This document shows, one piece after another, positions 29,463 to 33,283 of a stretch of 33,283 nucleotides of DNA. This stretch comes from Polynucleobacter sp. (lineage in GTDB: Bacteria; Pseudomonadota; Gammaproteobacteria; Burkholderiales; Burkholderiaceae), in contig JALRHB010000004.1 of the NCBI GenBank assembly GCA_023253245.1, positions 1 through 33,283 of the forward strand. The letters run 5' to 3'. A program made the position numbers and the translations under genes. Every line of letters begins with the position of its first letter. Within the stretch, counting starts at the first letter, position 1. The notes beneath the pieces were generated by a model, which was not told the origin of the DNA, did no database searches, and was given only the letters and a program-made list of their open reading frames with translations.

Positions 29463-30422
29463 ATGACAAACCTATTAGATCCCTCAATTTTATTTTTCAT
29501 TTTTGGAATTTTTGCCGGTCTTATTAAATCTAATCTTGAAATTCCTCAACCGATCTCTCGTTTTCTCTCTCTATATCTTCTAATGGCACTAGGATTAAAA
29601 GGTGGCTTTGCTTTAAATAAGTCAGGATTCACCTCAGAAATTGGAATTAGCCTTGGTTTAGCAATTACCTTAGCCATCATCATTCCATTACTAGGCTACA
29701 ACTTGCTAAAACATAGGCTCGACAAACTGGATGCCGCCGCAATTGCTGCCACTTATGGATCCATTAGTGCGGTCACCTTTATAACAACGACGCAAGTTTT
29801 GGATCAAACAGGCATTCATTATGGCGGTCATATGGCTGCGGCAATGGCACTAATGGAGTCTCCCGCCATCATCATCGCGATAATTCTTGCTAATCGTATT
29901 CGGCAACAACGGCAGGGTACCGCCAGCCCGAACACCTCTCTAGGAAAAGTACTTCATGAATCATTTACTGATGGTGGGCAACTTTTACTACTAGGATCAT
30001 TAGCTGTGGGCTTGATTTCGGGGGATTCAGGCCATAAAGTCATGGCACCATTTTCAATTGATTTATTCAAAGGCCTGCTCGCATTCTTCTTGTTAGATAT
30101 GGGCTTAATTGCTGCGAGAAGTATTGGTGAGCTCAAGGGCAAGCCCCCAGTCACACTGGTATATGCTTTTATTGCGCCCCCGATTCACGCAATAATTGCT
30201 CTTAGCTTATGCCACTTATTTTATGTGCCGCTTGGTGACACAATTCTTTTGATGATTTTGGCAGCAAGTGCATCATATATTGCGGTACCGGCAGTTCTGC
30301 GCCATGCGATGCCTGAGGTGAATCCCGCCTTATATATGGCAATGTCGCTGGGGATTACTTTTCCTTTAAACATCATTTTAGGAATTCCTATCTATAGCGC
30401 CATTGCCAAGTATTTTGCTTAA
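29463..30422 (+). CDS. SbtA-family sodium-dependent bicarbonate transporter, putative
   Basis: This 319-residue integral membrane protein (about ten helices in two halves) fits the SbtA superfamily. Supporting segments are LLDPSILFFIFGIFAGLIKSN at the start, SLYLLMALGLKGGFAL near residues 36-52, TYGSISAVTFITTTQVL near 98, and AASASYIAVPAVLRHAMPEVNPALYMAMSLG toward the end. Cyanobacterial SbtA imports HCO3- with Na+. This protein is shorter, and no PII-like sbtB gene follows. AAGGAAA precedes the ATG. Its divergent LysR gene and the DUF6671 gene 15 nt downstream define a module. Transport of bicarbonate is inferred from family; another anion is possible. Confidence 0.83.
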   Translation: MTNLLDPSILFFIFGIFAGLIKSNLEIPQPISRFLSLYLLMALGLKGGFALNKSGFTSEIGISLGLAITLAIIIPLLGYNLLKHRLDKLDAAAIAATYGSISAVTFITTTQVLDQTGIHYGGHMAAAMALMESPAIIIAIILANRIRQQRQGTASPNTSLGKVLHESFTDGGQLLLLGSLAVGLISGDSGHKVMAPFSIDLFKGLLAFFLLDMGLIAARSIGELKGKPPVTLVYAFIAPPIHAIIALSLCHLFYVPLGDTILLMILAASASYIAVPAVLRHAMPEVNPALYMAMSLGITFPLNIILGIPIYSAIAKYFA

Positions 30423-30437
30423 GAATTTCAAATAAAT

Positions 30438-31292
30438 ATGTCCAGATACCTTAAACCTTATTTTGGATTGCAAGCAAGCCTGTTAACGCAACATGGCAAA
30501 GAAGCCATTATTTCTCCCGAACTACTTAGTACAAATGGACTGGAGGTAATTCATGTCAATAACTATGACACAGATAAATTGGGAACCTTTACTCGCGATA
30601 TTCCTAGATATGGCTCGCAGCTTGATGCCGCCAGAAAAAAGGCGAGAATTGGTATGGCGCTCTCTGATACCAAAATCGGAATTGCTAGTGAAGGGGCGTT
30701 TGGGAACGACCCATATACCGGCTTGCTCCCTTGGAATTACGAATTAGTAATCCTGATTGACGACACTCGCAATCTAGAAATTACTGGCTTTTATGGCGGG
30801 GAGGCACAAAGTGCGAGCAAGCAGGTAACTAGCTGGGATGAGGTAATTGCCTTCTTACCTGAAGCCCAATTTCCAAGTCACCAATTAGTCATAAGGCCTG
30901 ATGATGAATATCACCCTCTTTGCCGCAAAGGAATCAACACAATTGATTCCCTTGAGCTAGCTTACCACTGGGCTAAAAATCTCTCTAAAAACGGCAACAT
31001 TTTTTTGGAGAATGATCTGCGCGCTCATACAAACCCCACGCGTATAGCAAATATTTTAAAAGCTACACAAGACCTAGCCAAGAAATTGAACTCGCTTTGT
31101 CCAAAATGTGAATCCCCCGGATTCTCGGTTACTAAAACTAAAAAAGGTTTACTTTGCGCTAATTGTGGAGCCTCCACAAATCTACCTATTTCTAATATCT
31201 GGTCATGCTTAAACTGTAGGCACACAAAAGAAATTGCGATTACCAATCAAGCCGCAGCTGATCCATCAAGATGCAATTACTGCAATCCCTAA
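30438..31292 (+). CDS. DUF6671-type protein with double zinc ribbon
   Basis: This 284-residue cytosolic protein has an alpha/beta N-terminal region (GLQASLLTQHGKEAIISPEL, DTDKLGTFTRDIPRYG, GIASEGAFGNDPYTGLLPWN), a link with FPSHQLVIRPDDEYHP, then a helical part with NDLRAHTNPTRIANI. The last ~70 residues hold four CxxC knuckles (CPKC, CANC, CLNC, CNYC), the pattern of two zinc ribbons. I recognise it as the DUF6671 family from memory; its function is not established. It follows the SbtA-like gene by 15 nt, so it is very likely cotranscribed, and may regulate or serve the transporter. There is no strong Shine-Dalgarno. Confidence 0.78.
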   Translation: MSRYLKPYFGLQASLLTQHGKEAIISPELLSTNGLEVIHVNNYDTDKLGTFTRDIPRYGSQLDAARKKARIGMALSDTKIGIASEGAFGNDPYTGLLPWNYELVILIDDTRNLEITGFYGGEAQSASKQVTSWDEVIAFLPEAQFPSHQLVIRPDDEYHPLCRKGINTIDSLELAYHWAKNLSKNGNIFLENDLRAHTNPTRIANILKATQDLAKKLNSLCPKCESPGFSVTKTKKGLLCANCGASTNLPISNIWSCLNCRHTKEIAITNQAAADPSRCNYCNP

Positions 31293-31390: not shown

Positions 31391-31852
31391 CTACCTGTAA
31401 GACTTATAAATGCTGGGCTTGCCATTTAGTCCAATAAGCAAAACATCATAAGGGTCTTTTCTACCCTTATATTCAGGACCATCCATCCCTGGAGAGCCAA
31501 CGGGCATAGCGGGAACTGCCAGTCCAATTGCTTTAGGTTTTTCTGCCAAAAGTCGCTTGATCTCTTTAGCGGGAACATGGCCCTCAATGGCATATCCCTC
31601 AATGAATGCAGTATGACAAGAACCAAACTGAATTGGCATTCCCAATTTCTTGCGAATTTCATCATTGCCATCTGTATAAGCTTTCACGGCAAAGCCATTC
31701 TTTTCCAGATGGTCAGCCCAATCTTTACAACAACCACAAGTAGGGCTCTTCCACATCGTAATGACAGGCTTTGGCGTTACAGCAAAACTCAAGGTTGGCA
31801 ATAGAGCTAATCCTAAAGAAATGAGTCTTCTTTGTTGATTTATTTGTTTCAT
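31391..31852 (-). CDS. DUF411 protein, CopG-like periplasmic copper-binding protein
   Basis: This 153-residue protein has a signal peptide (about residues 1-24) and a thioredoxin-like DUF411 domain with the metal motif KSPTCGCCKDW (Cys39, 41, 42). A further SCHTAFIEGYAIEGHVP near 100 supplies another Cys and His. A characterised relative, CopG of Pseudomonas copper-resistance operons, binds a copper cluster through such cysteines. The C-terminal segment AVPAMPVGSPGMDGPEYKGRKDPYDVLLI is typical. It is the last gene of the three-gene minus-strand metal cassette. Confidence 0.87.
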   Translation of the reverse strand: MKQINQQRRLISLGLALLPTLSFAVTPKPVITMWKSPTCGCCKDWADHLEKNGFAVKAYTDGNDEIRKKLGMPIQFGSCHTAFIEGYAIEGHVPAKEIKRLLAEKPKAIGLAVPAMPVGSPGMDGPEYKGRKDPYDVLLIGLNGKPSIYKSYR

Positions 31853-31903
31853 CTTTTAACTATCACTTTCTTTAAGCGAAGATTGCCCTTGCGGGCAACC
31901 CCC

Positions 31904-32548
31904 TCATTTGTGGGTATGTCCTTGGGTATTCATTGGCATCTGTCCACCACTCATGGGCATTTGATTAACAGACATGTTGCCCATCATTTGCTGATGTTGT
32001 TTCATCATCTTTTCATGCTCTTCTGGGTGGCAAAACTCATGGTCATCAGCACTAGAACTCATTTGATGAACGCCAGTGCCTTTGTAACCAAGAATGCCGG
32101 GATCAAGCATGCCTGCAATCATAGCAATATGGCCAAACACCAAAAATAGGGCAACGCAGATTGCGTGGATTTTTAATTTGCCCATTTGATCTAGCGCCTT
32201 ATTCACCACACCCATCTCTTGTAAGGCAATCCAAATGAGTGGCAATCCTGCAATAACATAAGTACCAACCGCAATCACATCAATTACTGTTCTCCACTCA
32301 CCTGCTTTAGTAATGGGAACTACCGCATTAGTTATGATGTAAATAATGATGCCAATAAAGTACACACCAACGGCAATCCCGGAAAAGCGATTCAGGTAAT
32401 AAATAGCTCCATCAAACTTACGAGTAAATAGTAAATACAACTCGGTAATTGCTAGAGTCTCAGCCAGAATAACTGGGATGGCCATAAAAATAATTAAATT
32501 CCAGGGCTGATTGACAGCCAATAACTCCATATAGTGAGTCATATTCAT
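31904..32548 (-). CDS. Polytopic membrane protein with Met/His-rich C-terminal tail (DUF6803-like)
   Basis: From the ATG at 32548 this is a 214-residue protein with about five hydrophobic helices (QPWNLIIFMAIPVILAETLAI, ISGIAVGVYFIG-like region, VIDVIAVGTYVIAGLPLIWI, IHAICVALFLVFGHIAMIAG), followed by a ~55-residue tail rich in Met and His: HPEEHEKMMKQHQQMMGN, then PMSGGQMPMN and GHTHK. Such tails bind Cu(I) in copper proteins. GGAG seven bases ahead fixes the start; the frame runs on to 32587 with no ribosome site. I recall the membrane part as DUF6803, whose role is unknown. Copper handling is inferred from tail and neighbours. Confidence 0.78.
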   Translation of the reverse strand: MNMTHYMELLAVNQPWNLIIFMAIPVILAETLAITELYLLFTRKFDGAIYYLNRFSGIAVGVYFIGIIIYIITNAVVPITKAGEWRTVIDVIAVGTYVIAGLPLIWIALQEMGVVNKALDQMGKLKIHAICVALFLVFGHIAMIAGMLDPGILGYKGTGVHQMSSSADDHEFCHPEEHEKMMKQHQQMMGNMSVNQMPMSGGQMPMNTQGHTHK

Positions 32549-32607
32549 AAGATTTCTCCGATAGATAGCAGTGGCGAAGCGCCACAAAAAATTAGTTAAA
32601 ACAAAAA

Positions 32608-32940
32608 TTAACTAATAGATCTTGGAGGTTTGAAGATGTGATTGGGAATCGCCTCAATCATTAATTGAGAAACCCACACAACGAAGTGACTAGAAAACTC
32701 GGGTTGCTTGTACTGATTTGAGGGTAAGTTTGCGACTACGCCCAAGCAACATTGATGATGGGTTTGGTGATTAGTGGATTGCGACTTTTCAATCTTTGTG
32801 TCGGCATTTGTATGACAGTCATGTTGCACTACATGCTGAACATGAGCGCCCCCCGAAGGCTCATATGACATAGACATACTGCCCGCATGAATGAGGCTGG
32901 CAAATAAACTAAGGCAGAGAGCAAAACAAATTTTTCTCAT
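32608..32940 (-). CDS. His/Cys-rich secreted small protein, probable metal-related
   Basis: This 110-residue protein has a signal peptide (about residues 1-19, ending LIHAG). The mature region has SMSMSYEPSG and a dense set of His and Cys residues: HVQHVVQHDCHTNAD, then NHQTHHQCCLG. A weakly hydrophobic C-terminal stretch follows (FSSHFVVWVSQLMIEAIPNHIF). It resembles DUF2946-like copper-cassette proteins in size and location, but that match is not firm. The Met/His/Cys content and the cassette point to copper or zinc binding in the periplasm. No Shine-Dalgarno precedes the ATG, and the sequence just upstream belongs to a truncated ABC gene. Confidence 0.7.
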   Translation of the reverse strand: MRKICFALCLSLFASLIHAGSMSMSYEPSGGAHVQHVVQHDCHTNADTKIEKSQSTNHQTHHQCCLGVVANLPSNQYKQPEFSSHFVVWVSQLMIEAIPNHIFKPPRSIS

Positions 32941-32949
32941 GTTTTGATT

Positions 32950-33283
32950 CTATGCTAATTTAATAATTTGTGCAGAAATATCCATAATAAGAGCAGCTGT
33001 CTTAGGATCAAGGGCAGCTGTATGCTCATCTAAAAGTAAAATACTACTTGGTTGTAATGCAGACATTAATAAGGAAACAGATTGACGTTGTCCTCCAGAT
33101 AAAAGTCCCATTTGAGAATTCAATCTATCTTCAAGACCAAGATTTAGTCTACTTAGCTGCTCTTGAAAGATTTTTCGTAATTGATTATTTAACGCTAAAG
33201 ATAAAGAACCTTTTTGTCCACGTCCATATGCAAGTGCCATATTTTCTTCTACTGTTAAATCGCCACAAGTTCCTGCTAGTGGA
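32950..33283 (-). pseudogene. ABC transporter ATP-binding protein fragment (COG1101-like), cut at both ends
   Basis: The minus-strand frame enters open from the right edge and reads LAGTCGDLTVEENMALAYGR, then the ABC signature LLSGGQRQSVSLLMSAL and Walker B with ILLLDEHTAALDPKTA. This matches ATPases of the TrpX/COG1101 type of uptake transporter. It ends IIKLA and a TAG at 32950, about where the family continues with an LTTLMVTHN-like H-loop. The ATPase therefore lacks the switch His and the following C-terminal region. The fragment looks more AT-rich than its neighbours. Either it is a remnant, or the contig is chimeric here; the 5' part lies outside the window. Confidence 0.7.

Follow-up and report, generated by a model that had tools for sequence, protein, structure and literature searches.

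A candidate cutFOG-like copper operon of Polynucleobacter with a DUF6803 membrane protein in the position of the oxidase

Genes and features of the locus

The window, i.e. the whole stretch of 33,283 nucleotides that was analysed, is a complete contig from a Polynucleobacter metagenome-assembled genome (MAG; 1.6 Mb, 82% complete), and in a scan of GTDB genomes the nearest relatives for the locus described here are Polynucleobacter as well. As originally predicted, three genes lie here on one strand and in one order (ORFs 32608–32940, 31904–32548 and 31391–31852, all minus), and transcription would run from 32940 to 31391 through a small upstream ORF (uORF) denoted SEC, a DUF6803 gene and a DUF411 gene. 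Soft-metal ligand residues are indeed present in all three proteins. The features referred to below are:

31391–31852, minus: DUF411/CopG-like periplasmic copper protein (CGCCKDW, GSCHT, EGHVPA, MPVGSPGM)
31904–32548, minus: DUF6803 (PF20617) four-helix inner-membrane protein, 214 aa, with a Met/His-rich C-terminal tail
32556–32559, minus: GGAG Shine-Dalgarno (SD) of the DUF6803 gene, predicted to pair with CUCC in the KPP codons
32571–32585, minus: second hairpin, GUGGCG-CUU-CGCCAC, between uORF and SD (fold prediction)
32591–32616, minus: hairpin across the uORF stop codon (AUUAGUUAA / UUAACUAAU), kept in the FKPPR group
32608–32940, minus: SEC, a CutF/CruR-like putative exported uORF, 110 aa, with C42, HQCC at 62–65 and an FKPPRSIS C-terminus
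32623–32631, minus: C-terminal K-P-P codons, putative arrest motif, with the predicted anti-SD CUCC at 32624–32627
32746–32751, minus: invariant CC codons, putative copper-sensing site (from the alignment and the CC–PP spacing)
32947–32952, minus: TAGAAT, a -10-like hexamer ending 6 nt ahead of the SEC ATG

Across the window an Rfam scan gave no match, and PADLOC reported no defence family.

The assignment of the last gene product as CopG-like holds: it matches PF04214 with an E-value of 8e-28 (96.3 bits, threshold 27) and the CopG structure 6wis with an E-value of 9e-30 over 122 residues, with the CGCC and GSCHT motifs aligned. CopG acts in copper resistance in the periplasm and binds a copper cluster through its CxCC motif (PMC7558416); binding of a tetranuclear copper cluster is a mark of the family. 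The gap between the DUF6803 and DUF411 genes (31853–31903) contains a hairpin, GCCC-GCAA-GGGC. Beyond the DUF411 gene, the plus strand at 29463–31292 encodes a sodium-bicarbonate transporter of the Sbt_1 type (PF05982) and, behind it, a DUF6671 protein whose Cys pairs resemble those of a zinc ribbon.

The membrane protein had been described as an undescribed component. It belongs to a named family, PF20617/DUF6803, which it matches over its full length (E 4e-70, 235.5 bits, threshold 27), and the lack of a described function stands, at least for the literature searched. Its start was placed at 32548 (MNMTHYMELL, with GGAG ahead), a position kept in 52 homologues; the mechanical call at an upstream TTG (32587), which is 39 nt longer, was rejected in favour of this conserved start. 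Instead of the five helices proposed originally, an AlphaFold2 model computed with 52 family members depicts four long helices (14–42, 48–82, 88–111 and 121–147), taken as transmembrane, and a short N-terminal helix, with a mean pLDDT of 80.5, most core blocks at 90–96 and a less certain tail. A Foldseek comparison of this model with the PDB remained without a hit at E ≤ 0.001, its top entries being generic helical bundles led by TRPV at E 0.49, and the best phmmer match among PDB chains had an E-value of 0.39. The Met/His tail with its MMKQHQQMM and PM repeats is present as reported. It is variable, however, being short or absent in many homologues and long mainly in Polynucleobacter, whereas the invariant soft ligands M3, H5, M7, M22, H140, M143 and M147 sit in the core, where E30, E36, W85 and D90 are further invariant residues. 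Judged by eye, the distribution of basic residues suggests, with moderate confidence at best, that both termini are periplasmic and that R43, K44 and the 111–126 loop lie inside; this topology would place the N-terminal Met/His residues, the H140–M147 segment and the Met/His tail in the periplasm. DUF6803 probably has a copper site built from its invariant Met and His residues on the periplasmic side, which would give it a role in copper handling.

The small exported ORF and its conservation

SEC had been taken for a secreted His/Cys-rich protein. His and Cys residues are present and the MAG sequence at its start, MRKICFALCLSLFASLIHAGS, resembles a Sec signal as judged by eye, but the anatomy is that of a CutF-like uORF. 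With 110 residues SEC is within the limit of fewer than 150 residues given for CutF-like proteins, and apart from the signal peptide, which is a judgement by eye only, it fits the anatomical criteria of the CutF authors (PMC9973294). It ends with FKPPRSIS directly before the stop codon, and the DUF6803 start follows 59 nt past the stop. In an alignment of 41 homologues with a mean column identity of 29%, full invariance is limited to C64, P105 and P106, with C42, C65 and K104 near-invariant. The CC pair is separated from the PP pair by 39 residues in 58 and by 40 residues in the remaining 7 of 65 distinct SEC sequences; the position of CC within the called ORFs ranges from residue 38 to 166, yet this spacing stays fixed. 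The C-terminal motif is [YF][KR]PP, mostly 2–6 residues from the stop. From its anatomy SEC thus looks like a copper-sensing uORF of the CutF/CruR type.

Profile searches place SEC apart from the named families. Against DUF2946 (PF11162) it scores 16.6 bits, below the gathering threshold of 23.7, and 5 of the 41 members match this profile at all (best E 0.0022); the CXXC and RAPP motifs of DUF2946/CruR are not present in SEC, which carries H-x-C-C and [YF][KR]PP instead. In L010/L043 and in L053 the SEC ORF (97 and 70 aa, respectively) stops short of KPP and looks frameshifted, with DUF6803 intact.

The SEC transcript is probably leaderless and begins at the ATG, since a -10-like box lies at a fixed distance and an SD is missing: TANNNT ends exactly 6 nt from the SEC ATG in 52 of 64 loci, with at most 3 loci at any other offset, and an SD-like motif upstream of the ATG is found in none of the 64, leaderlessness being read here from the promoter consensus. 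About 30–45 nt upstream of the ATG, near the -35 position, a palindrome such as GTCGTTTAAAACGAC occurs in L027, L029, L035 and many Polynucleobacter loci and is a possible transcription-factor site. It is missing from the window because of a break at 32971, the point up to which the upstream DNA matches relatives. The contig ends with ~310 bases (32972–33283) of 35% GC that encode the C-terminal portion of an ABC ATPase. This partial gene stops 9 bases ahead of the SEC gene and is without a close copy elsewhere in the MAG; this end may be either chimeric or a foreign insertion.

The GTDB scan yielded 80 DUF6803 loci, mostly from Burkholderiales with few others such as Leucothrix, and in 54 of them the DUF6803 gene is immediately preceded, in the same orientation, by a SEC ORF that retains both CC and PP. 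About a third lack the uORF, some through contig ends, so DUF6803 does not require it. Among 101 Polynucleobacter genomes, DUF6803 is found in 50 and DUF411 in 24; outside this genus DUF6803 is rare (of 399 genomes sampled from the phylum, 5 exceed the cut-off). Co-occurrence of the families, which the original prediction had proposed as a check, is borne out for SEC, adjacent to DUF6803 in 39 of the 50 genomes, but not for DUF411, which by hand count lies within ~1 kb of DUF6803 in only 7 of the 50, one of these being divergent. At the genome level the hand-counted co-occurrence of DUF411 and DUF6803 (15 of 24 genomes with DUF411, 35 of 77 others) is not clearly above chance. The conserved core is the SEC–DUF6803 pair and not the three-gene cassette, with DUF411 as an optional add-on; in the GTDB set DUF411 comes right after DUF6803 in no more than a few Polynucleobacter, at times with an HMA-domain protein behind it.

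The link of the trio to copper is supported by the CopG-like nature of the DUF411 protein and by SEC paralogues that head copper operons in other Polynucleobacter. In L195 a Pfam scan gives the order SEC-(small ORF)-OEP-MCO-cupredoxin-DUF411-CusF-HMA with a Cu-ATPase nearby, and L196–L198 have similar gene orders, although only L195 was Pfam-scanned. The SEC paralogues of these oxidase operons end with YKPPRI, IKPPIL or AKPPVS, and in L198 the oxidase operon adjoins a SEC–DUF6803–DUF411 cassette. For the MAG itself, a stand-alone system for copper capture or transfer had been suggested on the ground that no copper ATPase was in view. This is correct within the window, but the genome carries two P1B Cu-ATPase loci, one (L200) next to apparent cbb3 oxidase genes and likely CcoI, the other cut by a contig end, so that the stand-alone view is not sustained. 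Cu-oxidase_3, the multicopper oxidase profile, gave no match in the MAG, which is 82% complete.

Shielding of the DUF6803 Shine-Dalgarno by uORF tail codons

The RNA that extends in the window from the KPP codons up to the start of DUF6803 folds with a minimum free energy of -20.9 kcal/mol (z -3.3), a value that 2 of 200 shuffles equal. In the predicted structure a helix between CUCC (32624–32627, drawn from both Pro codons) and GGAG (32556–32559) encloses the two hairpins, and the SD is paired with a probability of 0.99, almost entirely with uORF tail codons. In homologues the stem sequence of the second hairpin varies and a hairpin is predicted at the equal position.

Over 65 loci, which share ancestry and are not independent counts, the mean SD pairing probability is 0.92, compared with 0.735 (replicate sd 0.024) for dinucleotide shuffles of the upstream part and 0.64 at 27 other gene junctions of the same loci. 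To lessen relatedness, 21 representatives below 70% identity were chosen, for which pairing is 0.89 versus 0.77 in shuffles; not one of 100 shuffles attained 0.89. Because the PP codons are C-rich anyway, the uORF tails of the representatives were also recoded synonymously by drawing on each locus's own codon usage; mean pairing then falls to 0.68, with none of 60 replicates as high as 0.89. Masking of 27 nt, corresponding to the footprint of a ribosome on PP, lowers the pairing of the representatives by 0.43 as opposed to 0.035 in shuffles and 0.21 after synonymous recoding.

The partner of the SD lies in the uORF tail codons, stop included, with a share of 0.84 in the 65 loci and 0.75 in the representatives; the two Pro codons and the next codon account for 0.69 and 0.35, respectively. 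CCU-CC is used at PP in 48 of the 65 loci, while CCU makes up 33% of other Pro codons. In Comamonadaceae the anti-SD is shifted a few codons downstream (CUCUCC, UCUCUU), still inside the uORF tail, and L066 shows a two-sided change, CUCCGAAG / CUUCGGAG. Covariation according to RNAalifold is weak within groups because the sequences are too close, and the SD cannot vary, so support was taken from the synonymous-codon and shuffle controls. Five of the 21 representatives (L027, L005, L024, L081 and L094) show merely ordinary SD pairing of 0.50–0.64. Sequestration of the SD by the uORF tail is a common design, but not a universal one. A count of the longest contiguous SD complements, in which many anti-SDs were intergenic, was dropped in favour of the partition function, as it scored G-U runs without energies.

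In the SEC paralogues ahead of oxidase operons SD shielding is moderate (0.58–0.75) and mostly not by PP codons; in L195:5651-6019, L196:6778-7134, L197:5192-5542 and L198:9420-9764 it is brought about mainly by sequence at and after the uORF stop. The PP-codon anti-SD would accordingly belong to the DUF6803 branch.

Proposed mechanism and alternatives

In CruR of Bordetella pertussis, a DUF2946 protein, CXXC and RAPP are 45 residues apart, a distance that matters, and copper control depends on both motifs (PMC9426467). In CutF a CXXXC motif and a Pro-rich C-terminus are likewise ~45 residues apart, and a copper-dependent delay of export opens a stem-loop shielding the cutO SD (PMC9973294); the gene order in Rhodobacter capsulatus is cutF-cutO-cutG, cutG being CopG-like (PMC9973294; PMC7558416). 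The present locus resembles cutFOG in that gene 1 is a small, putatively exported uORF with a Cys motif and a C-terminal Pro-rich motif, a structure, here a predicted one, shields the SD of gene 2, and gene 3 is CopG-like. It differs in that gene 2 encodes DUF6803 and not a multicopper oxidase, that the SEC motif is H-x-C-C and not CXXXC, and that the SEC start is probably leaderless. The predicted anti-SD of the SEC leader lies in KPP or the next codons. With CruR, SEC shares the Cys motif, the C-terminal Pro motif, their fixed spacing and the position at the operon head, but it has CC/KPP, ~60 nt of intergenic sequence and an SD-sequestering helix in place of CXXC/RAPP, 162 nt and Rho-dependent termination. 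The CopL family of Xanthomonas and Stenotrophomonas also consists of small Cys-rich, cis-acting ORFs ahead of copper genes; a CopL_fam match is seen in only 3 of 41 SEC members and is weak (best E 0.027). The DUF411 gene is here found behind DUF6803 and not behind an oxidase or efflux system.

In leaders of the SecM type an exported nascent chain with a Pro-containing arrest site controls access to the SD of the next gene. Unlike in these leaders (cited in PMC9973294), the signal for SEC would be a metal and not the export status.

The locus is best read as a genuine and conserved copper cassette of two to three genes, a modified CutF-type operon whose new target is DUF6803. The anatomy, the fixed CC–PP distance, the conserved shielding of the SD, the tuned codons and the synteny, all established computationally, are in keeping with the following scheme, in which we infer the stalling and copper as the ligand. 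In the resting state, uORF tail codons (in the window the Pro codons, CCUCC) would pair with the GGAG of DUF6803. The nascent SEC chain would sense copper through C42 and H-x-C-C and the ribosome would slow at the C-terminal KPP motif; held there, it would cover the anti-SD, leaving the SD free for translation of DUF6803 and the downstream CopG-like protein. DUF6803 may then bind, pass on or detoxify copper jointly with the latter. By analogy to CutF, expression would be on with copper, CruR acting oppositely. That this is a cutFOG-like copper operon, in which a KPP stall on a leaderless copper-sensing uORF frees the SD and DUF6803 stands in the place of the oxidase, we consider probable. The more specific reading, namely that codons of the arrest motif double as the anti-SD on a leaderless transcript and that DUF6803 represents a novel class of membrane proteins for copper handling and replaces the multicopper oxidase, is put forward tentatively, as plausible but somewhat short of probable.

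The soft-metal ligands in all three proteins, the CopG-like DUF411 and the His/Cys content and apparent signal peptide (by eye) of SEC would also suit a periplasmic chain of three structural proteins for copper capture or transfer, with SEC as a secreted copper carrier acting in trans. A carrier, however, needs neither an invariant PP near the stop nor a fixed CC–PP spacing around otherwise free sequence nor SD-tuned codons, the experimentally studied relatives were not detected as stable proteins (PMC9426467, PMC9973294), and DUF411 is usually missing beside SEC–DUF6803; we regard the chain as improbable, the small protein being better explained as a regulatory uORF. Constitutive uORF translation with plain translational coupling, i.e. 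without copper sensing or regulated stalling, would likewise open the SD helix, and sequestration by tail codons is just what such coupling requires. It leaves the invariant CC, the KPP, their spacing and the paralogues heading copper operons unexplained, and is in our opinion a poor candidate.

Somewhat more weight is due to control in the opposite sense, although it too seems unlikely: as in Bordetella, where CruR heads an uptake operon switched off by copper (PMC9426467), copper would relieve stalling and DUF6803 expression would drop, for instance if DUF6803 were a copper importer. Against this reading, the intergenic region measures 57–69 nt in most loci compared with 162 in cruR-bfrG, the SD sequestration is CutF-like and the third gene, when present, is the resistance protein CopG. 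A metal other than copper, e.g. silver, nickel or zinc, is very improbable: some CutF-like proteins do adjoin Ni/Co genes, but these have His-only motifs, whereas SEC has invariant Cys, lies near a CopG gene and has paralogues at the front of copper operons.

Under the preferred CutF-type reading, DUF6803, a named but functionless family, gains a testable role in copper handling, and the growing class of copper-sensing nascent-chain regulators gains a new target. The leaders of freshwater Burkholderiales suggest that the RNA switch consists of the stall codons themselves; if true, one ribosome-bound segment would serve as sensor output and RNA switch together. The predicted switch is self-contained within ~100 nt and is therefore easy to test.

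A distant SEC-like ORF with an FKPPKAIA end (L199:6617-6976), together with about a dozen similar loci, is found ahead of a gene for an outer-membrane lipoprotein-like protein and is perhaps another uORF with a different target.
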